Shown here: one piece after another, positions 1,640-14,982 of the stretch
How positions within the stretch are numbered: position 1 is the first letter of the stretch
Layout: the number at the start of each line of letters is the position of its first letter
Virus record (IMG/VR): IMGVR_UViG_3300028045_000116
Location: 1 to 22,171 of that record
Length of the DNA stretch: 22,171 nt
Strand: one strand, 5' to 3'
DNA from: a virus
Notes under the pieces: model-generated
Seen by the model: the letters and a program-made list of their open reading frames with translations, nothing else
Told to the model about the DNA's origin: nothing
Databases searched by the model: none
Program-made: the position numbers and the translations under genes

Positions 1640-2039
1640 CCCTAAGCTTATTAGGGAGGAGGCGGATTTATTTAATTTTATAAAGAATCATTTCATACCC
1701 GACTTGATTCCAACGGAACTTCGTAAAAGATACGATTGCTTTTCTGAATTGTACCAAATGGATATTGAGTTAAAGTGCAGACGAAAACATTACCCCACAT
1801 TACTTATAGAAAAACCAAAGTACAATGCGTTAATGAATAGGTGTAAGGCATATTGCACAACACCTGTTTATATAAACTCTACACCCAAAGGTATTTGGGC
1901 ATTTTACATTCAAGACCACGATATAGTGTGGGAGAAAAAATATCTCCCAATCAATACTGACTTTGGCAACAATTCAAAAATTATAAAAGAAGTTGGATAC
2001 CTTGATATAAAAAATGGTATTGATTTACTTTCCATTTAA
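1629..2039 (+). CDS. Putative PD-(D/E)XK-fold nuclease
   Basis: A 136-residue protein with a compact nuclease-like core: R-Y-D at 34-36, then D45-I-E47-L-K49 (the D/ExK element) followed by a basic C-R-R-K stretch (50-53) and the region PTLLIEKPKYNAL (56-68), which resembles the strand-helix after the catalytic Lys in this superfamily. A later strand pair (PVYINSTPKGIWAFYI) would continue the sheet. In phages such proteins often act as Holliday-junction or recombination nucleases, and the position at the end of a DNA-metabolism cluster fits. The D/ExK pattern alone is not decisive, so the enzyme class is tentative. Its stop codon overlaps the stop of the convergent giant gene. Confidence 0.6.
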   Translation: MIYNPKLIREEADLFNFIKNHFIPDLIPTELRKRYDCFSELYQMDIELKCRRKHYPTLLIEKPKYNALMNRCKAYCTTPVYINSTPKGIWAFYIQDHDIVWEKKYLPINTDFGNNSKIIKEVGYLDIKNGIDLLSI

Positions 2040-5000
2040 TTTTTCAAGGCATCATTAATTTCGTCTCTAATTTCTTTTTTAATTGCTTTTACTTCTCGTT
2101 CAGTCTCATATCCCGGTCTTGATTTACCATACAATTCTTCATACAAATCAGGGTCAATAGCTTTTAATACTCTTTTATCTGAAGCTTTAGTTGATTTTTC
2201 CTTACCCTTAGTGCTTTTCTTTTTCGTTCCATATCCCGGTCTGTAAGATGGTGTAACACCTATCGCATCATAAATGTTATCGTCATCAGTATCACCTCCA
2301 AGAAGTTTAATTAAACCAATTGGTGCATCAAGTTGCATACCTGAATATATTTCTAACAATACCCTTGCAGCTTTCAGCATACCATCTGAACTTTGAAACT
2401 CATCCACATCCTTAAATACTTTTCTTACTACAGATGTAAGAGGATTGACAACATCAGAAACAGGTTTTCTGTCTCCTTGCATTTTAGCTACAAAAGATTC
2501 AATACCTGCTCCAATTAACGGTATAGCATATACAAGATTCAAACCTAACGCTGCATCTTTCAAAGCCTTGTATGCTCTTTCTTTTTCTCCATCCTTACCA
2601 AAAAGTAATGCAGGAGCATATGACACTGCGGTAAACGCAACGTTGGCTAACGAATAATTCAATGCCAACTTACGAACCTCTTTTCTGCTTATGTTCTTCC
2701 AACCTTTAGGACCCTTCATAATGTCTGAAGTAATACTCATTGAGGACTGCATAACATTATTCATCATCAAGAATAAAGAACTACCAAACATAGTAAAACT
2801 TCTGTTTAGTGCATCTGTGTTCTGTTGTAGACCCACTTTTTCTGTCGACCTTCTTGACTGTTGTGTAGAGTTGTAGTCGTTGAAGTCTCTTAGTGCTTGG
2901 TTTTTATCTACACCATTTCTTATTTGTCTATTATACAAAGCTTTGTACCCAATTACCCCGAGTATATCTCCGGCTACTGTAGTAAATCCTTTTGTTTTTT
3001 CAAACCCTCTTTTAAATTTACCTTTTCTCCCTTGGTCTGCTCTTGCCTTTTTAAATGTTCTACCACCTGACTCAAGACCAAGTACGTCTCCTTCTAAACC
3101 TTTCTTGATACGAGCATCGAAGGTTGCTGAAAGTTCTCTTGATTCTCTTAAATTAGTTCTAAGCATAATCAAAACCTCAGCATAGTCCTTTAAAAAACCA
3201 AGCGTGTCTAATCCCGGTATATATCTTCCTGAAGGAAGTGCATCATATTTTTGCCAAGCAAATATAAATGAAGACATTTGTTTAGGAACCTGCACAAGCT
3301 TAAGTGCTAAAGCGAAACCTGTAAATAAACTTTGAAGTTTTGTAACGGCATCATTGCTTTGTACTTGTGGTCCCGAATCGGGATTTATAGCGTAGCTTAA
3401 CATCCTATCGAACAAAGGTTTAATCCCCGACTCTTTTAATAAGTTTTGGATACCTTGGTCTTGAAGAACTGAATTCATTTCCTTTACTCCCACCGCATAA
3501 GCTTTGTACTTTTCCATTGACTGAACGTGGTCTTCCATAGTTTCTGTAAAAGAAAAGTATGGGTCCACATCTCCCGACATATCTGTACGCTCTTTAAGTG
3601 CAGGAGAAAACTCAGCAGAAAATATCTTTTGAAATTCTCCTTCAGCAATCATTGCACTTGTAATCTGACCTTTTGAAATAGTTCTTGTAGGGAAATAATT
3701 CTCTACATAACCGAGGTTCACATCATTTACTTGAGAGAATACTTGATTTGTTTCTTCAAAATATTTGTTACTTAAAAAGTCAACTGACTGTTCAACTAAA
3801 AGTTGGTTGTCTTGCCCTATGAAGTTTTTAATTTGCTCCATATCAAACCCCATCTTCTCAAGCTTTTCACCCTGAACTTCGTTTAAAGACAAAGCATACA
3901 ATCTCATCGCTTGGTCTTTATTAAATACATCAGTAATTACTTTACCGGTTTTTGTTGTCTCTTTAAAGGTGAGTTCAATAACATCAGTTCCTAAATTATA
4001 TTTCCATTTAGTCCAATCTGTTTTGTTGGTAGCTTGTGCAATAGCATCCATAGACCCCATAGTTCTTCTAACACCCTGAAGATTTCTTTCATCAAAATCA
4101 TTTAGTACATTATAGAATTTTTCGGTAAACAAACCTTCTTTATTACCATCAAGCATTCGTGTGAACGTACCAAGATGTACAACATAGTTCTGCATAAACC
4201 TTGACACGCTATTGGATGTCAACTTTTTCTGACCATCTTCTTTAAAGGTATCCAAGAAAGCTCGTGCTGCTGACCATAAACCACCTTTCTCAAAAGCTTT
4301 TCTAATCGTTTGTCTTTTAGATTTTAGAGCAAGTTCACCAAGAGGATTTCCATTCTCATCGTATAACTGACTGTAATCCTGATTCATTTGCTCATTGAAC
4401 TCCTTTTGAATCTCTTCAACATTCTTTTTTCTTTGCTCTCTTCTGTTATTAAGATTAGCAATTGACTCGCTTCTTGTTTGTTTTACATCAATAAATAAAT
4501 CCTGAACATCTTCAAGTTCCATTGTCATTACGTTTGCAAACGTATCAAATGCAAGTTGTCTATCAACAAGAACTTGTTCTTTGGTAGTAAGCTTTTTGCC
4601 TTCTTCAATTTTTGTAGCAATATCCGACATCACTTGAGGGTCGAGAGTATCTTGAAGTTCTTTAAGCTTTACGAAGTCTTGTTTTTTAACCGCTTCTAAA
4701 ACTGCTTTTACTTGTGCAAAATAACTTTGTCCTGCTGCATCTAAACCTGCTGACCTTCTTTTTCCTGAATCCGTTTTTATAGTTTTAGCTTTCTTCTTAA
4801 CTAAAGCTATAATCTTATCAATCGTTCTGTTCTTTTCGTTGTTCCTTTCAATCTGAACATCCTTCAATACCTCAGAAACTTTTCCTACAAAGTTTTCCGG
4901 TGTAGTTGTGTTAATGGTTTTTAGTAATCTATTTATAACTGCATTACTGAAGTTTTTAGATTTAGGCAAAAGCTTACGAATAACCATACGCATTCTTCTT

Positions 5001-8000
5001 TGTGCATCTGTGATGTTGTCTTTACTAATCTTTCTTTGCTTAAGATTGTTTCTTATCTGACCTATCTCTCTCGAAACGTTTGCATTACTTCTAATACCAA
5101 GTACTCTGTCAAATGCCACCAACAGTTCATTTTGAATCTGTTCAGTTTGAACCTTAAAGATTGGACTCTGTTTCATTTCTTCAAAAGCCTTTTGTCTTAT
5201 CTCTGAAAAGCTTTTAATTCTACCTGTCGAGTCAAATGCAAATTTATTTACAATGGTTCTTACGTCATTGAATAATTTAAACCCAACCTTCGCACCTTGT
5301 GCAACGTCTCCAAAAACTCTTGGCATTTCTAAGTCTAAACCAAGTTCTACTTTCATTGCTGCTTTAATATCAGTAGCAGAGAACCCTCTGTTCTTAAGCA
5401 CCACTCTTATAGACTCATCGTTTATTCCGTCATTCCTTCCCTTTCGAACGATACTGTCTATAGACATCCCTGAACTAAACATAGCTTCGGGATTCTTTAA
5501 TGCCTTGACTTGATTCTCCGTCATCTTAAGTGGCTTACCTGCAAATATATCCGCAAGTGCAGTCCCTAAGAACGCATCGAGAGTTAAATTTTGAATCTCT
5601 TCTGCAGATAAATCTTTAGACATTTTGAACTGAGCCTTGATATAGTTCCACATACCAATCAACCATTCTTGAAACTCAGATTTAATAGACCCATTTACAA
5701 TAGTCTCACCCTTGTTACCAATAAGAATAGCCATAGTTTCTCTTGTGGCTTTATCTACATCACCGTCAAACTTTTCTAATTGTCTTTTAAACTCTTCGGT
5801 TTCTTGAACAACCTCAGCACCTCTGTTGTAAATTTCTTTACCTTTCTTGCTCGTCTGTAAGTAATCCGTCCAAACGTGACCCATCTCGTGTATAGATGTG
5901 TTGTATAAAGAAGACTTAGTATCGTGTACCTCAGGGTTAATATAAACGTCCCCGTCTACTGTTACCCCATATATAATCTCATCGCCCTTTAGATACGCTC
6001 TAACGTTGTCCTGAGACATTACATTGTTGAATGTATCTACGTCTGAATTAATAACTACAGACGGGAACGCTAAGTTCATAAAAGCATTAAGCTTAGTAGA
6101 CTCATCAGGATTAATAGCTGCCACAATACCAATGTAGTCCTTGTCGGGGACACCAATGCCGACTCCTGTGGTTTGCGTTCGTTTTGTTTTAGCATCAAAC
6201 TTGTTACCTTTTTCTTCTGAGGCAACCATTTTAGCAATTATCTTTTCGAATGCCTTAGGGTATACAGTCTCCATAGATTGTGGATTCTCAAGTATACCTA
6301 TTGACCTACCTCTAACCCCATACTTATAGTTTGGGTGTGTTGTTTCAATTACCCCGGGATTAAGAACATCAACTCCTACTAAAGCAACAACGTTACCAAT
6401 AGGTACATTCTTTAGTTGTGGGTCTGTAAGTAGATTAGTTATTTGTGCTAAGTTCAACTTAATCGCATCACTCTCTACACCTTTAAGAAGTTCTTTTACC
6501 GTAACCTTTGTGCTTTTAGTAACCCCTCCAACCTTTGTTTCTTTAGCCTTGGCTTCCTGAATTTTACTTGAAGTTAAATAACCAACCAACTTTGCTCTTG
6601 CAGGAAGAGACATAGTCTCTACAAATGCAGGTGTAAGTGCTTGGTCTATAGTCGTAACCTTACCGTCTCTAAGTCTTTGCAGTAAGTCTGTAATGTTTTT
6701 TATATCTTTTTTGTTAGTAGCGTTTTTCTTTGGTATGGCATTTAACCTTACCAAGTCTGCTTTCATTTGTCTTTTTAAAACAGGTACGGCTAACTTTCTA
6801 TTCTTAATAGGAAGAGATGATACGTTATCTGCTAAGACTCTAACAACTGCTTCGTTAGACTTCATAGCTTCCTGCCCCATCTTAACAATGTTCATAGGAA
6901 CTAAACCATTGTACTCAGGATTATCTGCCCAAAACTTTCTAAATATAGCTTCGTTGTTTTGAAAGATTAACTCTGCTCTATTAATAATTGTTTTAGCCTC
7001 TTTCTCCTCTACGTTTGCCCAAGCTGCCTGTTCGTTTCCTACTGTTCCGTTAAAACCAATTGCACCTTTAAGTTCACTTATAACATTACCTGTTGCCGGA
7101 TTAGTTACAGTACCTGTAGTTAGTTGGTCTGTAATGCTAAACATTGTAGGTACACCTTTAATAATTTTAAGGTTAGTTATTTTTAATGGTCTATCAGTAC
7201 GAGAGTTTAATTCTTCAACATCAATTTTATCTGATGTCATTTCCTCCGGTGTAATCTTAACGTCAACGTTAGGACTTTCCTGTGCATTAATAGAATTTGT
7301 TACCGCATCTTCAGCTTCTTGTTTCTCTGTTTCATTGGTGGTTTCTTCTATCTCTGTTCTGAAATCAACCTTAGGCTTCTTACCTGACTCTTCTTGTTTA
7401 AGTGACTCCTCAAAATCTACAGACTCCTGAACGGTTACAGACGTATTATCTTTTGACTCTACATTATTAGACCTTTCTATTTGTCTTGGTGCTCGTCCTT
7501 CTATTTGAGGTTGTGTCTTTGAAGACACTTCTTCTGTAGTTGTTGTAACAACACCCGTTTCTTCTGTAGCCGTTGGAACAATGCTCGTTTCTTCTGTAGT
7601 CGTTGTGGTTTCTTCTTGAGTACCTTGAGTACCTTGAGTACCTTGAGTACCTTGAGTACCTTGAGTTCCACTGTTCTCAGTACCTCGCTTCTTGTTTATG
7701 TTAGCTTCGGCTAATTTATTGGCAACAAATTGAGCAACCTCGTCATCGTTATCTATTGTAGCACTCATACGAGTCAACTCGTAGGGAGACATATTATTAA
7801 TAAACTCAATAAACTCATTTTTCGTTACTTGTTTTACCCTGCCAAATCGGCTTGTCTTTATTTTATAAGATGCCAATCCTTCTCTAACATCACTAATGTT
7901 TGACTGTTCCCCAACAGAGAACACCCCTTTACCTGCAAGAATTGTTTGCTCATTTAAAGGTTTAAGTTCTCTTGTTGTAATTATGTCAGCTAACTCTTTG

Positions 8001-10936
8001 TTTATTTCTGAAACCTTATCGCTAAATATTGATTTTCTATTTGTGGTAGAAGTCATCTCTTCTTTTGCGGCAAGTAGTTCCATTACCCTTGTCTCTACAT
8101 CTCCGTTTCTTTTTACTCTTTGAAACGCTCCTGTGTTTTTAAGCAACTCTCTTGCAGTTCTTCTTAACCCAACGTTCATTTGAATACGTTGATTCATTTC
8201 AGGGTCAATCTTACCAAGACGTTCCATATTATTTGCCCAAGCAGAAATTTTAGTTCCTGAAGACAACTCATTAGACATAAACTTAATGTCAGTAAAGCCT
8301 GATGCCAACTCGACATTATTTTTGCTTCTTGCTTGTAGTGCAAGGTTAATGCTCATATTGGATGTGTTACTACCTGTAGCACCACCCATTTCTGCCATAA
8401 TATCTTTGATGTTTATTTCATCACCAACATTTATTTGTGCAGCTAATTCCCCAAATCCTTCAGCTATTGGGTCAGCTATCATACGCTCTGCAGCAAGTGC
8501 ACCTATTCTTGCAGGAAGACTTGCAGTTCTTCCAACTCTTATAAGATTACCTGCGAGTCGAGCAGTTAATAAGTCTACAATAGCAATTGGAATACCTCTT
8601 TTTAAACCACGCTCTTTACCTAAGTCCCACACCCCTTGGTCTTGTAATGCCTTCTCTACAGATTTAGGGTCGGTTATATCATAACCTTTAGTTGTAATAG
8701 CTGCAAGAACTTCATTGGTATATTCCATCGCTAATTGTGTAGCCGCAAATCCTGTTCTTAAACCCCAAGTTAAACCTGTTACTGCTCCTGCTCCTGTAGT
8801 TACTACACCTCCGGGTCCTGTAACAAAACCTGTTGCTCCAATAGCTGCACCTGTTCCGGCACCTGTTGCTGCTGCAGTAGGTATTATCTTCTTACCATAC
8901 GGAAGCATCATAGAGATACTGTGTGCCGCTAAAGAAGTCGTCCACTCAAATGGGTCGTCTAAAATAACATCCCAATTTTCAGCCATATTAGTTGTCTTCT
9001 CCCATCGACTCATAACCCTTGACCTTTTCTCAGGTTGAGCATTCATATACTCTACAATTGACTCTGCCATTCTTGTAGTAGACTCAGGGTCGTCAAGGTC
9101 TATACCACCCATAAACTGAGGGTACATTGTAGCGGCTAAAATTAAATCACCTGCTTGACCTACATTGTTACCTTCTGCTATAGAAGTTTTAAACCCTTCC
9201 CAATTTTCTGCATACTCTCGTTCTGCAAATTTATCGTACTTCAAGTCAAAAAAAGTTGTAGCATTTTCATATGCATCTGCGGCAATGTTAGACTTTAATT
9301 GTTGTGCACCGTACTCAAGTTGAATTGATTTTATAATCTGTTCTTCCCTTTTATCTTTTGGTTCAACCAATGATAATTCACTTGGGTCAACACCAAAGTA
9401 CCTTTGACTTTTTTGACTGATAAGTTTCTCTGCTTCTTTGGCAGCAAAGTTTACTTTAATAGCACCACCTATACTTTGTTGTCTTCTTTTTTCAAGAAAT
9501 AAATCAGCATCTTCTCTTACCTTCATAGACTTATCGTCAAGATATTTGTCCTGTAAGGTCATCCTTATACGTCCTGCCTCATTGTACAAGTCTTTACTGT
9601 CACCTCTTAGCTTCCCGTTAATATAAAACTTGTCACCGTATAGTGCTTGGTCTTCAGCAGACAATGATGTTAATCTAAATGGTGCCCAATCTAAAAAGGC
9701 TTCATCAGACTTTGCTTCTTCATAATCAAATAATAGTTTTCTCTCTGCTTCGTAGTTGAGACCTTTTTTATTATAATAACTTTCTATTTCTGCCTCAGCA
9801 GTTGAAACATCTTTCCAACTTCCTTGAGCAAATGCTTCTGCCTCCTCTTTGGTGTCAAACTCAAACACCTCGTTTCTTTCTCTTGATAATTCTAAAGCCT
9901 CCTCAAAACTTAAGTCTTCGTGCCACCACATTCTGTCTGATGTGTAATTGTCAGGGTCAATGGGGTGTAGCATAGGGATAACCTTATGCTTACCATCTTC
10001 CTCAAACGAGGTCATTCTAACAGTTGATTCCGAACCGTCTGAATTTTTCAGTGCAATATCACGCATTGTCTTTGCCTTGATTGCTTTCTGAACGGTGGAA
10101 GTAATTGGTTGTGCTTTCTCTCCTGAAAGATTATTTTTTATAAATCTTTTTAGTTGGTTTGCTCCGCTTACTTCACTGCTTGAAAAGTAAGGGTCTAAAT
10201 CTATTGTAGTCTTTGTGAATCCATCAGGTGCAACAACTGATACATTGTCTCCAATTCCTGATTCGCTAAATGTAAATCCGTACTTTTTAAATTTCTTAAT
10301 CAAAAAAGGAACAACATCTTCTTCTTCCTTACCTATAAGGTCAGCATCTATTCTTGCTATTTCATCTTTAAAAATAGGGTCTTGCTTTATTTCTAATATT
10401 TGAGCGTTTTTTATTGCTTTGGCTTCTGCCTTCGCTGCTGCTTCTTGTTTTTTTCTTAAATCTAAATCAGGTTTTTCCTCAGAAATATTTGCCTTAGTAA
10501 AGTCGTTGTCTACAAACGTTTGTGCGAATGCACGGTCAATCTGACTTTGTTCAGGGTACATCCCTATGCTTCGAATAGGGTCTCTATATCCATCCTCACG
10601 GGTGTCTACTGCAGGACCCGGTGCTGAAGGGTCATAGTTAAATGTGGAAGGGTCGAACTCAGGAATGTCTGACAAGTCCGAAGAACCATCTTCCAAAGAA
10701 CCATCCATACCGTCTTGTTCCGGTTGGTCTTTTTTTTTTACCTGTGCTACTCCAAAATATGCTCCAAAAAACTCAGCTTCATTTAAGTCAGTCATACCCT
10801 CACCTTTAACAAAGTTAAATACATCCTTAGCTTTATAAGGGTCATTGCTATATGCGGCATTAAACTCTTCAAGTGACAAATCAGTTGCCCCTTGTCCTTT
10901 TATATATGCATATAATTCTTGCAGCTTCTCGTTCAT
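2036..10936 (-). CDS. Giant polyvalent virion/ejection protein with zincin metallopeptidase motif
   Basis: At 2966 residues this is the last gene of the late operon and sits where P22 has gp16 and T7 has gp16. Regions in order: two copies of a 22-residue motif at 8-29 and 39-60; an acidic Asp/Ser/Pro linker to about 115; a long helical N-terminal half; a Gly/Ala-rich, membrane-like segment at about 680-730; a conserved-looking block at about 810-850; a Thr/Gln/Glu repeat linker at 1090-1136; a metallopeptidase-like region with HEMGH at 1683-1687 and E1733 as a possible third zinc ligand; long helical and coiled-coil stretches at about 1850-2250; YVENYFP at 2410-2416; and a hydrophobic stretch at about 2760-2830 before a basic tail. 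HExxH plus YVENYFP-type blocks are typical of giant polyvalent proteins carried by phages and conjugative elements. By inference it is packaged and injected with the DNA. No RNA-polymerase DxDGD motif was seen. Confidence 0.8.
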   Translation of the reverse strand: MNEKLQELYAYIKGQGATDLSLEEFNAAYSNDPYKAKDVFNFVKGEGMTDLNEAEFFGAYFGVAQVKKKDQPEQDGMDGSLEDGSSDLSDIPEFDPSTFNYDPSAPGPAVDTREDGYRDPIRSIGMYPEQSQIDRAFAQTFVDNDFTKANISEEKPDLDLRKKQEAAAKAEAKAIKNAQILEIKQDPIFKDEIARIDADLIGKEEEDVVPFLIKKFKKYGFTFSESGIGDNVSVVAPDGFTKTTIDLDPYFSSSEVSGANQLKRFIKNNLSGEKAQPITSTVQKAIKAKTMRDIALKNSDGSESTVRMTSFEEDGKHKVIPMLHPIDPDNYTSDRMWWHEDLSFEEALELSRERNEVFEFDTKEEAEAFAQGSWKDVSTAEAEIESYYNKKGLNYEAERKLLFDYEEAKSDEAFLDWAPFRLTSLSAEDQALYGDKFYINGKLRGDSKDLYNEAGRIRMTLQDKYLDDKSMKVREDADLFLEKRRQQSIGGAIKVNFAAKEAEKLISQKSQRYFGVDPSELSLVEPKDKREEQIIKSIQLEYGAQQLKSNIAADAYENATTFFDLKYDKFAEREYAENWEGFKTSIAEGNNVGQAGDLILAATMYPQFMGGIDLDDPESTTRMAESIVEYMNAQPEKRSRVMSRWEKTTNMAENWDVILDDPFEWTTSLAAHSISMMLPYGKKIIPTAAATGAGTGAAIGATGFVTGPGGVVTTGAGAVTGLTWGLRTGFAATQLAMEYTNEVLAAITTKGYDITDPKSVEKALQDQGVWDLGKERGLKRGIPIAIVDLLTARLAGNLIRVGRTASLPARIGALAAERMIADPIAEGFGELAAQINVGDEINIKDIMAEMGGATGSNTSNMSINLALQARSKNNVELASGFTDIKFMSNELSSGTKISAWANNMERLGKIDPEMNQRIQMNVGLRRTARELLKNTGAFQRVKRNGDVETRVMELLAAKEEMTSTTNRKSIFSDKVSEINKELADIITTRELKPLNEQTILAGKGVFSVGEQSNISDVREGLASYKIKTSRFGRVKQVTKNEFIEFINNMSPYELTRMSATIDNDDEVAQFVANKLAEANINKKRGTENSGTQGTQGTQGTQGTQGTQEETTTTTEETSIVPTATEETGVVTTTTEEVSSKTQPQIEGRAPRQIERSNNVESKDNTSVTVQESVDFEESLKQEESGKKPKVDFRTEIEETTNETEKQEAEDAVTNSINAQESPNVDVKITPEEMTSDKIDVEELNSRTDRPLKITNLKIIKGVPTMFSITDQLTTGTVTNPATGNVISELKGAIGFNGTVGNEQAAWANVEEKEAKTIINRAELIFQNNEAIFRKFWADNPEYNGLVPMNIVKMGQEAMKSNEAVVRVLADNVSSLPIKNRKLAVPVLKRQMKADLVRLNAIPKKNATNKKDIKNITDLLQRLRDGKVTTIDQALTPAFVETMSLPARAKLVGYLTSSKIQEAKAKETKVGGVTKSTKVTVKELLKGVESDAIKLNLAQITNLLTDPQLKNVPIGNVVALVGVDVLNPGVIETTHPNYKYGVRGRSIGILENPQSMETVYPKAFEKIIAKMVASEEKGNKFDAKTKRTQTTGVGIGVPDKDYIGIVAAINPDESTKLNAFMNLAFPSVVINSDVDTFNNVMSQDNVRAYLKGDEIIYGVTVDGDVYINPEVHDTKSSLYNTSIHEMGHVWTDYLQTSKKGKEIYNRGAEVVQETEEFKRQLEKFDGDVDKATRETMAILIGNKGETIVNGSIKSEFQEWLIGMWNYIKAQFKMSKDLSAEEIQNLTLDAFLGTALADIFAGKPLKMTENQVKALKNPEAMFSSGMSIDSIVRKGRNDGINDESIRVVLKNRGFSATDIKAAMKVELGLDLEMPRVFGDVAQGAKVGFKLFNDVRTIVNKFAFDSTGRIKSFSEIRQKAFEEMKQSPIFKVQTEQIQNELLVAFDRVLGIRSNANVSREIGQIRNNLKQRKISKDNITDAQRRMRMVIRKLLPKSKNFSNAVINRLLKTINTTTPENFVGKVSEVLKDVQIERNNEKNRTIDKIIALVKKKAKTIKTDSGKRRSAGLDAAGQSYFAQVKAVLEAVKKQDFVKLKELQDTLDPQVMSDIATKIEEGKKLTTKEQVLVDRQLAFDTFANVMTMELEDVQDLFIDVKQTRSESIANLNNRREQRKKNVEEIQKEFNEQMNQDYSQLYDENGNPLGELALKSKRQTIRKAFEKGGLWSAARAFLDTFKEDGQKKLTSNSVSRFMQNYVVHLGTFTRMLDGNKEGLFTEKFYNVLNDFDERNLQGVRRTMGSMDAIAQATNKTDWTKWKYNLGTDVIELTFKETTKTGKVITDVFNKDQAMRLYALSLNEVQGEKLEKMGFDMEQIKNFIGQDNQLLVEQSVDFLSNKYFEETNQVFSQVNDVNLGYVENYFPTRTISKGQITSAMIAEGEFQKIFSAEFSPALKERTDMSGDVDPYFSFTETMEDHVQSMEKYKAYAVGVKEMNSVLQDQGIQNLLKESGIKPLFDRMLSYAINPDSGPQVQSNDAVTKLQSLFTGFALALKLVQVPKQMSSFIFAWQKYDALPSGRYIPGLDTLGFLKDYAEVLIMLRTNLRESRELSATFDARIKKGLEGDVLGLESGGRTFKKARADQGRKGKFKRGFEKTKGFTTVAGDILGVIGYKALYNRQIRNGVDKNQALRDFNDYNSTQQSRRSTEKVGLQQNTDALNRSFTMFGSSLFLMMNNVMQSSMSITSDIMKGPKGWKNISRKEVRKLALNYSLANVAFTAVSYAPALLFGKDGEKERAYKALKDAALGLNLVYAIPLIGAGIESFVAKMQGDRKPVSDVVNPLTSVVRKVFKDVDEFQSSDGMLKAARVLLEIYSGMQLDAPIGLIKLLGGDTDDDNIYDAIGVTPSYRPGYGTKKKSTKGKEKSTKASDKRVLKAIDPDLYEELYGKSRPGYETEREVKAIKKEIRDEINDALKN
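7531..7620. repeat. Three imperfect 30-nt tandem repeats inside the giant gene
   Basis: Each unit begins CTTCTGTAG on the plus strand, at 7531, 7561 and 7591, with an exact 30-nt period. On the minus strand they encode 10-residue units rich in Thr and Glu (TEETSIVPTA, TEETGVVTTT and a diverged third). The period is a multiple of three, so copy changes keep the frame. They lie next to the 9-nt array and together encode a flexible linker. Confidence 0.85.
7615..7669. repeat. 9-nt tandem repeat array encoding GTQ units
   Basis: TACCTTGAG is repeated perfectly five times at 7621-7665, with partial copies on each side. On the minus strand it encodes six consecutive Gly-Thr-Gln units (residues 1090-1107 of the giant protein). 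Such perfect microrepeats change copy number easily by slippage, and the 9-nt unit keeps the frame. Confidence 0.95.
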
Positions 10937-10940
10937 CTTA

Positions 10941-12914
10941 TTATCCGTTTAATTTTATTTTCCCTTGTTTCTTACTTGTTCTTGGAGCAGACTTTACTGT
11001 TCCTCTCTTACCTTGAACTTTAATTGCTTTATCCTCAACAGATGTATTATTCATAGACAATTCATAAATACTGTCATAGAATGTTTGTAGTGCGGCTGCC
11101 GTTGGTTTATCGTCAAATAGGATTGAACTAACAACATTGCCATCTTTATCTTTAATTTCTATAAAGTCAGCATTGTCTGAGGATGTAACCGCAGTAAAGT
11201 TACCTGATATACCCGGTATTTTTGCCATCCATTGTTGAACTTTTGGTAAAGAAGCATCTTCATCATCCTCAATAATCATTTTCGAAGGTGGCTTGATGTT
11301 TCTAATTTCTCTCTTGAACACTACATCAATTGCTTCTTGCTGAGGTGCAGCCTCTCCTGCACTAAACCCTACAGATGTTGAATTAAACTGTCTCGTACCA
11401 TCGAACTTAGATTTTTTAAGGGTAGCATCTACATCTTTTATTTTACTCTTGTCTCCTAATATTTTGTTTACGTTACCTTTTATGAATGATGCTTGGTCTA
11501 CTTGTGCTCCTGCATCATCTGTAAAGTTAAGCGTTTCAGTTCTGCCATCTGAAAATTCAACAACAACTGATGCTCCATCTCTGTCAAAAGAAACAATGTC
11601 ATTATTTATACTTCTCAAGAAATCTTCTGCCTCTTTAACTTCTGTATCATTACCATACCAAAGTTTAGCAAAGTTACCTACTACAGATTGTTGTTCTGCA
11701 GCTAACTTTCTATTTGCATCTTCAGTTGTTGTTGCAGGTCTTGATTGTTCTTTCATTTTTTGAGTAGACACCTCATCAATAGTGCTTATCTGCATCTCAG
11801 CTTGTGCTGCTAAACTTCTTGCAGCAACTGCGTTTTGTTCGTCAGTCATCTCTGTAACTGTACGACCATTCTCATTTTTCAATAAGATTATATTTTGTTT
11901 TCTTTTACCGTTAGCATCTAATGTATCTGCCTCGTCAAAAGTAGTGGAATATATCTGTCCATCAGGTGTAGATTTATTAAAGTCCATCAATATAGATGCC
12001 CCATTAAAAGACTTACCCTGCAGTTGGCTTTCTGCCCAAGTCTTTCTTGACTCATCCCATAGACTTAATGCCTTTAAATCACTTGGCTTAACACCCATCT
12101 CTAACGCAGTAGCTTCTAATTGTTCATCAGTCATATCATTGAAGCCACCATCTCTGTTTCTAATATCAGATATCTTTCTGAGTTGACCTGAACTTAGCGA
12201 GGTCCCCATACTTATAACGGTTTGAACTACATCAGTTCCTAATGTAGATGTCCAATCTTTCGCTGCTGAAATGACATCATACTTTGTGATTTTAGTTTTA
12301 ATTCTGTTCTTTAGGTTTTGAACTGACACCAAGTTATTTCTGTTTGGGTCAAGTATCTTAGGACCGGAAGGGTCGTCAGGATTTTCTATGAGTTTACCCA
12401 TAGAAACTAATCCCGTTTCAGGATTAATAACTAACTCTGAATCATTAAAGTTAGAGAACCCTTCAACATTTGCCATAATCTCTAAGTCAATATTTGATAG
12501 TTGGTCTCCATAAGCCACATCATCACCAAGCAGTGCCATTTTAGCTGAGTACTCGTCATTGTAATCTTGAAGCAAACTAAAACCTTGGTCTGTTCCATCG
12601 GTAATGTTTGCTCTCATCATTGTATATTGTCTTGGACTAAGCTGACCTGACTTTAATAAAGTTTCTTGCATTAACATTTGTTTCTGCAATTTTTCAGAAA
12701 ATCCTATAGCATATTTATTTAACTCGCTATTTTCTCCTTGTGGAACATTGTTAAGTACACGCTGATATTCACGAGAAGCCTCGTCAATAGCGGCTTTCTT
12801 TTCCTCTCGTACACGGACTTCTTCATTAAGCATATTGTTAACATTGCTGCCAACTTCTGCCCAATTAATGTTATTGTCATTATTCCTTTCAACGTACTTA
12901 TATGCTGTAGCCAT
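10941..12914 (-). CDS. Internal virion (ejection/cargo) protein, 657 residues
   Basis: A 657-residue soluble protein with no signal peptide or membrane segment. It is Asp/Asn/Lys-rich and mainly helical in the first 170 residues (a Glu/Arg-rich coiled-coil stretch at about 30-55), with more mixed composition afterwards and a basic, low-complexity C-terminus (about 635-657). No catalytic motif was recognised. Its place between a T7 gp14-like protein and the giant protein, and its length, correspond to T7 gp15 and P22 gp20, so it is most likely a packaged protein released into the host with the DNA. Its ATG follows an A/T-only leader, and the giant gene starts 4 nt after its stop. The function rests on position rather than on a domain. 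Confidence 0.68.
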   Translation of the reverse strand: MATAYKYVERNNDNNINWAEVGSNVNNMLNEEVRVREEKKAAIDEASREYQRVLNNVPQGENSELNKYAIGFSEKLQKQMLMQETLLKSGQLSPRQYTMMRANITDGTDQGFSLLQDYNDEYSAKMALLGDDVAYGDQLSNIDLEIMANVEGFSNFNDSELVINPETGLVSMGKLIENPDDPSGPKILDPNRNNLVSVQNLKNRIKTKITKYDVISAAKDWTSTLGTDVVQTVISMGTSLSSGQLRKISDIRNRDGGFNDMTDEQLEATALEMGVKPSDLKALSLWDESRKTWAESQLQGKSFNGASILMDFNKSTPDGQIYSTTFDEADTLDANGKRKQNIILLKNENGRTVTEMTDEQNAVAARSLAAQAEMQISTIDEVSTQKMKEQSRPATTTEDANRKLAAEQQSVVGNFAKLWYGNDTEVKEAEDFLRSINNDIVSFDRDGASVVVEFSDGRTETLNFTDDAGAQVDQASFIKGNVNKILGDKSKIKDVDATLKKSKFDGTRQFNSTSVGFSAGEAAPQQEAIDVVFKREIRNIKPPSKMIIEDDEDASLPKVQQWMAKIPGISGNFTAVTSSDNADFIEIKDKDGNVVSSILFDDKPTAAALQTFYDSIYELSMNNTSVEDKAIKVQGKRGTVKSAPRTSKKQGKIKLNG

Positions 12915-12924
12915 TCTTTATTTT

Positions 12925-13728
12925 TTATTGTGTTCCTGCCGGATTTCCAAGGTAAGTAGCAAAAGGGTTTTGATACGCTTGAACGTATTGGTCATTTTGA
13001 AAAAGCATATTGCTCTGACCGGGTGTAAGGCTCCTTTTATATTGCCTAAAGTCTCTATTAGTCATATTTGCAATTGCATTAGGGTCGGTAAAGGTTGCTC
13101 CGTTTCCTGCTGCTTTAAAAGCTGCTGCATCTATATTATCAATTCCTCCAACTGCTGCCCTTTGGTTAGCCGTGTTCTGACCATATAAAGGAACAAACGC
13201 TGCTGCTTGTTGTGCAGAATTCATTATCCCTTGTATTCCTTGTTGTTTAGCTTGTTGTGCCGCTTCTTGTGCGTTCGCTGCCTTTAATTGATTTCCTGCA
13301 ACCTCTTCTAAGTCTAAAGAAACATCTAAGTCTCTAAGCCTTGAATCCTCTTCTATAATTGCATTTTCAATGTTAGTCATTTCGTCTGCCATAGCACCTC
13401 TTACATTTGCTTGACCTGCTTGTTGTGCAGCATAGACTCTACCTGCAGTTGTAGCTGAACCTCTTTCACTCGCCATACCTGACTCGGTTGCCATAGCACC
13501 CTGAACCAATAAAGCTTCTCTTTCGTTATCGTAAGCTTCTTTTTTAATAGACATTTGTTCGGCAAAGTTTACATCAAGTTTCCCTCGTGCTTCTGCCATT
13601 GCTTTATCAGCATCAAGTTCTGCTTGTTCTTGTGCTTTTCTTTGTTTACTTGCTTGTGAAAATGAAGCTACAGTACTCCCTACGGATACCGCTAACCCCA
13701 CTGCCGCTATTGCCGTTGCTGCTGCCAT
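12925..13728 (-). CDS. Ala/Gln-rich internal virion protein (T7 gp14-like)
   Basis: This 267-residue protein opens with a hydrophobic Ala/Val/Gly segment (residues 1-25, MAAATAIAAVGLAVSVGS) and then a long Ala/Gln/Glu/Lys helical region (about 26-180) full of short polar residues. A Gly/Asn/Ala-rich C-terminal part ends the protein. T7 gp14 and similar podoviral internal core proteins share the pattern of a membrane-inserting N-terminus followed by an Ala/Gln-rich coiled coil; gp14 forms the outer-membrane pore of the ejection conduit. The neighbouring gene order supports this role. The start is 1 nt downstream of the GNAT gene's stop, with an A/T-rich leader and no Shine-Dalgarno sequence. 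Homology is inferred from composition and position. Confidence 0.7.
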   Translation of the reverse strand: MAAATAIAAVGLAVSVGSTVASFSQASKQRKAQEQAELDADKAMAEARGKLDVNFAEQMSIKKEAYDNEREALLVQGAMATESGMASERGSATTAGRVYAAQQAGQANVRGAMADEMTNIENAIIEEDSRLRDLDVSLDLEEVAGNQLKAANAQEAAQQAKQQGIQGIMNSAQQAAAFVPLYGQNTANQRAAVGGIDNIDAAAFKAAGNGATFTDPNAIANMTNRDFRQYKRSLTPGQSNMLFQNDQYVQAYQNPFATYLGNPAGTQ

Positions 13729-13729
13729 A

Positions 13730-14140
13730 TTATAAATTTTTTATCATTTCATAAGTGTTAGAATCTCCCTTAACATAACCTAAGGACTCAAAAGTATTCA
13801 TCAAAGATTTGTGTTTCAGTAATGAATAACAATACTTTGCTCCTTGATTTTTACTTATATTGGTTAGTGTTTCTACTAATAGACCCATCGCTTGTTTCCT
13901 GTGAGGTTTCTTTCTATATTCTTTGTTTGATACCAAAAACTCAATTAGTGCAACGTTTGAATTTGTGAGGTATATAAAACCTGCACATACCGGAGTTTCA
14001 CCATCATAAATCATCATACCACCTTTGCCATCATCAGGTAAGAAGTCTTTTGGAGGAGGTGTCCAACCCCAATCTTCCCACCACTTTACAAGGGTGTCAT
14101 CGTAATCATTAGATTTGAGTATTTTAATATCGAATATCAT
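13730..14140 (-). CDS. GNAT-fold acetyltransferase-like protein in the ejection cassette
   Basis: A 136-residue protein with the GNAT outline: a strand region PVCAGFIYL (50-58), a strand ALIEFLVSNKEYR (64-76), a loop-helix KPHRKQAMGLLVETL (78-92), and a terminal strand-helix-strand with SLMNTFESLGYVKGDSNTYEM. The acetyl-CoA pyrophosphate loop lacks the normal Q/R-x-x-G-x-G/A spacing, so activity is uncertain. WWEDWGW at 20-26 is an unusual aromatic cluster. P22 gp14 and T7 gp13, which sit at the same place in their late operons, are also GNAT-like, which suggests a conserved structural role. I chose the ATG at 14140; a TTG nine bases upstream (14149) is also in frame but is less likely. Confidence 0.75.
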   Translation of the reverse strand: MIFDIKILKSNDYDDTLVKWWEDWGWTPPPKDFLPDDGKGGMMIYDGETPVCAGFIYLTNSNVALIEFLVSNKEYRKKPHRKQAMGLLVETLTNISKNQGAKYCYSLLKHKSLMNTFESLGYVKGDSNTYEMIKNL

Positions 14141-14146
14141 TGACAA

Positions 14147-14154
14147 CAAAGATA
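14147..14154 (-). promoter_or_regulatory. Candidate internal promoter box (TAnnTTTG) before the GNAT gene
   Basis: TATCTTTG on the minus strand lies 6 nt before the ATG at 14140 and matches the Bacteroidota -7 consensus. It falls in the 20-nt gap between the fibre gene and the GNAT gene, the longest gap of the operon. The surrounding 10-mer is identical to the one before the gene at 109. No TTG is seen at the expected -33 distance, so this is a half-match only. Confidence 0.3.
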
Positions 14155-14160
14155 AGAAAT

Positions 14161-14982
14161 TTAAGGGAATGATTTCATCACTTCGCTTTCTACTGAAAAC
14201 AATTCTACTTTCTCAGTATTGTTATTAGTAAGTGTGAACACACCATAGTGTCCAAGAATACCGTGAGACTCAACTACTGAGTTTTTTATATATAACATAT
14301 ATTCTGTAGTTGTTGGTGCCGGAGCACCAATTGTATTGTCTACCACTATCTCGTTTATACCTGCAGGGAAGTCTTGGTTTACCTGAATAACTCTTCCCAA
14401 TAATGTTGGATTAGGGTTGCCAAAATAAAGCATATCTCCATCGTTGTTAAGAGTTGTTCCTACAGATATTATATTACCTATTGGCATTGTAACAGGAAAA
14501 GAAACTGTTGTTGTTGTACCTGTAACCACAATGTTAGCACTCGTCCCTATCCCATTTAAAGAACGTAGAGCGTACTCGCTCAGTTGAGCAGGAGTAGTTC
14601 CATCGTTTCTTACAAAAGCAAAATAAGAACCTTCTTTTTTAGCGTACCAAGGTGCTAATATAAACCCATCATCTTGTTGGTCGCTAATAAGTATAGTTCC
14701 CCAACTATCATCTCCCTCTAAGTTAATTGTTTTAAATAGTTTGTTCTCTAAAGGAACGTCATTAAATACCGACTGCATCACACTACTATAGTTTACACCA
14801 TAATATTGGTTTCTAATAGTGTTTGTGTTGTGACGATAAAGGTTACCCCCTTTAAATGTATAGAAGTAGTTGTTCATACCAATCATCCAATCTGCAAAAT
14901 AAGAATAGAAAGATGGGAACCCTTTTATACCATTGTCATACGTTACCGTATAGTTTTTGTTTTTATCTACTTGATTACTCAT
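14161..14982 (-). CDS. Tail/fibre-associated virion protein, 273 residues
   Basis: This protein has a Tyr/Phe/Trp-rich N-terminal block, with PSFYSYFADWMIGMNNYFY at residues 23-41 followed by F-K-G-G and L-Y-R-H-N (43-52). I recognise that block as recurring in tail proteins of Bacteroidota phages. Residues 90-130 look like a second beta-rich unit, and 150-235 are Thr/Ile/Val-rich and beta-structured, as in fibre or baseplate domains. There is no signal peptide or catalytic motif. It follows the Cys-rich tail protein gene by 10 nt. Adsorption or tail-tip structure is the likely role; the exact position in the virion cannot be read from the sequence. Confidence 0.6.
   Translation of the reverse strand: MSNQVDKNKNYTVTYDNGIKGFPSFYSYFADWMIGMNNYFYTFKGGNLYRHNTNTIRNQYYGVNYSSVMQSVFNDVPLENKLFKTINLEGDDSWGTILISDQQDDGFILAPWYAKKEGSYFAFVRNDGTTPAQLSEYALRSLNGIGTSANIVVTGTTTTVSFPVTMPIGNIISVGTTLNNDGDMLYFGNPNPTLLGRVIQVNQDFPAGINEIVVDNTIGAPAPTTTEYMLYIKNSVVESHGILGHYGVFTLTNNNTEKVELFSVESEVMKSFP

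Follow-up and report, generated by a model that had tools for sequence, protein, structure and literature searches.

The giant protein encoded at positions 2036-10936 of the window (the whole stretch of viral DNA analysed, 22,171 nucleotides, which makes up one IMG/VR record) is a new member of the polyvalent proteins, belonging to a sequence family that lies outside the current models. We propose, with a probability of roughly 0.74, that it is an injected polyvalent cargo protein with constant ends, a variable slot and an intact zincin-type metallopeptidase domain. A Bacteroidota podovirus would carry such a protein inside its virion and deliver it to the host cell either together with its DNA or before it. 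Packaging and ejection would be the work of the two constant ends, of which the N-terminal one is membrane-like. Between these ends would lie a cargo slot (nearly empty in the window phage), then an alpha/beta module and then a zincin with its catalytic site intact, which may free the modules by self-processing after ejection.

Domain layout and the zincin domain

ORF calling recovered the gene as a single ORF with an ATG start, of the length and at the position given by the first-pass annotation, and placed it on the minus strand, where it closes a leftward late operon running from 22116 down to 2036. A convergent plus-strand gene at 1629-2039 overlaps its end by 4 bp, and a VRR-NUC nuclease is encoded at 109-348 on the plus strand (1.1e-9). 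The protein is laid out as follows:

2036-10936, minus strand: giant modular protein, 2966 aa (P0001), defined by the ORF and its relatives
7682-10399, minus strand: N-terminal conserved module, aa 180-1085, from family alignment and HMM
8732-8896, minus strand: Gly/Ala-rich membrane-like stretch, aa 681-735
7307-7681, minus strand: variable slot, aa 1086-1210, here only a low-complexity linker with TQG repeats
6167-7234, minus strand: middle alpha/beta module, aa 1235-1590, from AlphaFold2, with matches to BFVD phage proteins whose alignment may take in the zincin
5522-6139, minus strand: zincin-type metallopeptidase domain, aa 1600-1805
5924-5926, minus strand: conserved H1671, just past the strand preceding the HExxH helix
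5876-5890, minus strand: HEMGH, aa 1683-1687
5738-5740, minus strand: third zinc ligand E1733, in the second helix of the model
2039-5479, minus strand: C-terminal constant core, aa 1820-2966
3689-3709, minus strand: YVENYFP, aa 2410-2416, inside the C-terminal core

Scans of the whole-length protein against Pfam and PHROG gave zero matches, and PDB sequence searches returned just designed helical repeats, a beta-glucosidase and a miniprotein. The zincin is the sole recognised enzymatic domain in the window protein; relatives hold a GNAT, DUF7178, DUF3293 or second zincin domain. The protein contains only 10 histidines, and the number of HExxH motifs expected from its composition alone is 0.003. 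The HEMGH motif and its possible third ligand had been located to the exact residues in the first-pass annotation, and we found the HExxH signature and E1733 to be invariant in two alignments and identical in all 56 non-redundant full-length relatives, a set fetched in part by the HExxH pattern. H1671, a feature named in the available part of Iyer et al. 2017 (PMC5512222), is retained in 54 of the 54 sequences ungapped at that position. Residues 1641-1800 form the most conserved stretch of the entire protein (mean 0.71-0.77 versus about 0.3-0.6 elsewhere).

AlphaFold2 models aa 1600-1805 with a pLDDT of 88.1 and a pTM of 0.86 as a helix, three strands, the HExxH helix and a Glu helix, with E1733 in helix 128-149 of the 206-residue model; a longer model of aa 1235-1870 reaches a pLDDT of 85.6. 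This core order was found with DSSP on two AlphaFold2 models and is stated for polyvalent MPTases in the available part of PMC5512222. Around residues 1600-1750, where the absence of a zincin fold had been named beforehand as the observation that would count against the assignment, AlphaFold2 instead gives a zincin-like topology. A Foldseek search of PDB with the zincin model gave no match at E <= 0.001 (best E 0.45). Five of its top 10 matches (ranks 1, 2, 5, 6 and 10), none significant, are HExxH zinc metallopeptidases, the top folds being MATCAP, lugdulysin M30 and an M61 peptidase, likewise below significance; the same search with the 636-residue model was uninformative. Family members also gave weak Pfam matches on HExxH families (SprT-like in 19 of 38, M91 in 9, M78 in 5 and MPTase-PolyVal in 2), and in 14 phage records the cut-off of 27.5 bits for PF18818 (MPTase-PolyVal) was unreached, the best score being 15 bits. 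We regard the zincin assignment, drawn from alignments and models, as strongly supported, although not proven. Because the catalytic residues are invariant, which argues for activity, we predict that the window zincin is catalytically intact.

Outside the zincin, the membrane-like Gly/Ala segment noted earlier is real, in that aa 681-735 are 45% G+A with glycines conserved among relatives, but its hydropathy falls under that of a clear transmembrane helix. Similarly, the YVENYFP block stands exactly where it had been placed and is part of the conserved C-terminal core, a region that in the giant-protein family is matched by no LPD family of Pfam. LPD38, being unmatched there, was rejected as its identity, and yet two distant relatives carry LPD38 near their C end. 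The linker contains tandem repeats at 7529-7606 and 7615-7666, of which the latter is a perfect 9-bp tandem repeat of 5.8 copies coding the TQG repeats; slippage at this repeat could change the linker length.

Relatives, cargo slot and exchange of the protease

In scans of IMG/VR, at least 140 stretches encode relatives of the zincin and at least 107 encode relatives of the C core, and we read the best 77 of the former and the best 80 of the latter. Zincin relatives in bacterial genomes lie in giant ORFs in every case inspected, and five of the six such ORFs scanned carry curated polyvalent domains over the cut-off, namely InPase, MuF_C, LPD3, PBECR1, LPD38, Kinase-PolyVal and ART-PolyVal. A giant from Paludibacter sp. 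221 (L176) is related to the window family in the zincin (2e-31) as well as in the C core (7e-31), and it carries the Pfam domains InPase, Kinase-PolyVal and ART-PolyVal; because it joins both modules to polyvalent domains, we place the window protein among the polyvalent proteins. Furthermore, the giant gene is encoded among virion genes, and the complete relative MW202828 has a terminase and a portal. The link to giant polyvalent proteins drawn in the first-pass annotation is hence borne out, whereas its statement that the combination could be matched to no described system is countered by the description of zincins in phage-injected polyvalent proteins in the available part of PMC5512222. 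There, zincin MPTases are reported as the commonest domain of these proteins, the N4 virion RNAP included, processing and effector roles (both raised in the first-pass annotation) are proposed, and domain mosaicism is described.

The homologous giant of MW202828 (L007:19518-31097) has two zincins and is annotated as 'reticulocyte binding/rhoptry protein', probably a misannotation. A phage-like stretch with a giant protein (C core 5e-48) forms part of a 1.05 Mb 'chromosome' binned as Candidatus Aenigmatarchaeota (L172), a placement that is an assembly or binning question.

Most members share a constant N module (aa ~185-1080) and a constant C core (~1820-2960), and a slot of 55-1107 aa separates the N module from the middle module. 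The slot or the adjoining region holds GNAT and DUF7178 domains (L060), DUF3293 (L082), a second zincin (MW202828) and several domains outside Pfam; even in close relatives with flanks ~90% identical, the slots differ. One slot domain absent from Pfam, with conserved HDxFGH, GEENAW and ETRGQNS motifs, occurs in L023, L036, L062 (twice) and L082 and may be a new enzyme. A second unrecognised slot domain (VAPFFDTTIE...) is present in L061, L072, L165 and L169, zincin-less giants included, and a slot stretch of L050, 'LLFTGSPRKFQSFDM...FFSNDPYIAEYYS', resembles an ADP-ribosyltransferase by eye and has no Pfam match.

The protease itself is also exchanged. The DNA of two relatives, L039 and L129, is 94-96% identical outside a stretch of 2.1-2.6 kb, within which only 167 bp align; here L039 encodes a type A zincin (HEMGHVW) and L129 a type B zincin (HEVTHAV), which likewise keeps the H, E, H and third-ligand E. 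In the set found by the C core only (80 loci, the best of at least 107, fetched through the C-terminal region), 76 loci were long enough to be typed, of which 61 have type A, eight type B, one type C and six no zincin; these are counts of sequences rather than of independent events, as some loci are near-duplicates. Among the zincin-less members, L157 has the N module and the C core and is devoid of a slot domain, while L165, L166 (judged by its close similarity to L165) and L169 retain one.

What the zincin does may be read in more than one way. Some zincin is retained in 70 of the 76 loci despite the changes of type, a pattern that suits a general function, for instance cleavage of linkers within the giant itself. 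Accordingly, we slightly favor self-processing, by which the modules would be released once ejected, over host targeting, at somewhat below even odds. Against processing as the sole role speak the zincin-less members, some of which (L165, L166 and L169) have a slot domain. As these natural variants keep the C core (six of 76), the zincin appears dispensable for building the particle, which agrees with the second reading, a serious contender at about one chance in three: that the zincin is an injected effector cutting host proteins of defence, transcription or the envelope, with exchange of type reflecting changing host targets. The swap of a whole protease module between phages ~94-96% identical also favors this reading, as does precedent, since zincins serve as effectors in polymorphic toxins and the same role is proposed for polyvalent proteins in the available part of PMC5512222. 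However, in most members the region still encodes a zincin of one type or another and not some unrelated effector. A broader version, less likely than not in our view, sees the giant as an injection chassis whose zincin clades and other enzymes are swapped by recombination between near-identical phages because each works against a different target or defence of the host. What probability remains falls to both roles together or to a structural one.

For a structural role there is a parallel in the N4 vRNAP, in which an HExxH subdomain precedes a helical C-terminal part of ~1,100 aa and which shares the three-gene cassette order (PMC12633501); the available part of PMC5512222 describes it as packaged unprocessed. 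By this comparison the zincin of the window protein would be a relic without protease activity in an ejection protein, as the N4 subdomain may be. We consider this improbable, given that the H, E, H and third-ligand E are invariant in 56 of 56 relatives and are kept even in the type B module.

Neighboring cassette, host and packaging

A 1549-aa tail protein of the window matches those of Flavobacterium, Cellulophaga, Tenacibaculum and Maribacter podoviruses, and a Bacteroidota host is therefore likely. Four genes precede the giant in the cassette:

14161-14982, minus strand: tail protein with the crAss muzzle C-terminal domain (PF25729, 1.7e-13)
13730-14149, minus strand: 139-aa acetyltransferase-like protein (phrog_17252; phi40:1 gp098, MS/MS, is in the same PHROG)
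12925-13728, minus strand: 267-aa internal virion protein (phrog_13764; phi40:1 gp099, MS/MS, is in the same PHROG)
10941-12914, minus strand: 657-aa probable ejection/cargo protein (phrog_35506; positional counterpart of phi40:1 gp100, MS/MS)

The PF25729 domain belongs to an ORF of its own (273 aa) rather than to the 1549-aa tail protein, and the two are possibly a split muzzle. The acetyltransferase-like label of the 139-aa protein comes from the annotation of MW202828, and an injected modifying enzyme is a possible identity for it.

The order of muzzle, 139-aa, 267-aa, 657-aa and giant proteins is that of Cellulophaga phi40:1 gp097-gp101, all five of which are annotated 'structural protein ... 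experimental MS/MS proteomics analysis'; gp100 and gp101 correspond to the window genes by position only. The giant gene is the last of this cassette, as had been recognised in the first-pass annotation, and the packaging supposed there is likely by analogy, because the cassette matches MS/MS-annotated genes of phi40:1 and because the products of the post-muzzle cassette of crAss001 are cargo proteins that mass spectrometry detected in the virion (PMC10172136). A packaged giant would presumably also be injected. The only bridge between phi40:1 gp101 and the window giant is Tenacibaculum phage Gundel_1 gp74, whose N part matches phi38:1 gp101 (5e-16) and whose middle part aligns to the window zincin (1e-26, profile). 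The family HMMs gave no match to the phi38:1 homologue of phi40:1 gp101, and hhalign detected no significant similarity of the N module to the phi38:1 and Gundel N regions; in the available part of a 2026 mSystems paper about the phi38:1 virion, no protein is named that would correspond to the giant. The phi38:1 record (L009, KC821614) cites 'phi18:1' for its structural evidence, probably a record error, the MS/MS notes being on phi40:1 and phi18:1 measuring only 39.2 kb. That the giant is a late non-virion protein is very unlikely: the 'structural protein' labels of the Gundel_1 and Flavobacterium elemo giants are annotation alone, but the gene ends a cassette whose phi40:1 counterparts are all MS/MS-annotated, two of them with PHROGs in common with window genes.

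Comparison with known injected proteins

The family adds to the polyvalent proteins and is abundant in phages, one scan confirming at least 107 stretches in IMG/VR; its window member lies outside every Pfam and PHROG model tested. Natural near-isogenic pairs differing almost only in the protease module are a useful addition, making the target of the protease, the phage's own protein versus the host's, directly testable in a lab phage.

T7 gp16 and P22 gp16, with which the first-pass annotation had compared the giant, resemble it by analogy of position in the ejection cassette; the comparison goes no further, as Pfam and PHROG revealed no lysozyme/transglycosylase domain or sequence match. The N4 virion RNA polymerase (gp50) is, like the window giant, the last product of a three-gene ejection cassette, an injected giant of 3500 aa with an HExxH motif followed by a C part; profiles of the N, zincin and C modules gave no significant match to it. 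An RNA polymerase identity was rejected, there being no conserved DxDxD between the window and manatee proteins and no homology to N4 gp50. The crAss001 cargo proteins gp45/46/47/49/50 are encoded directly after the muzzle gene, comparable to the window with its PF25729 domain. Unlike that cargo, the window giant is without a conserved DxDxD polymerase motif, and the text of PMC10172136 mentions no protease. The same genomic position is occupied by phi38:1/phi40:1 gp101, Gundel_1 gp74 and the elemo giant; Gundel_1 gp74 has a window-type zincin, the elemo giant a type B zincin and phi38:1 gp101 no HExxH, and the N and C modules of the phi38:1, Gundel_1 and elemo giants differ beyond detection.

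The best match is to the polyvalent proteins as described in the available part of Iyer et al. 2017 (PMC5512222): a giant modular protein encoded among virion genes, with a zincin whose second helix bears the Glu and whose HExxH helix is preceded by a conserved His, and with relatives that pair the zincin with ART, kinase, InPase, PBECR1, MuF_C, LPD3 and LPD38 domains in a mosaic fashion. Unlike those proteins, the window protein reaches no Pfam polyvalent model and falls into a distinct sequence family that has N and C modules of its own. Neither a swap between near-identical phages nor a fixed cargo slot is found in the available part of that work, and what appears new here, as judged from sequence comparisons, is the architecture of constant ends, a hypervariable slot and a protease module that is swapped between near-identical phages or absent.
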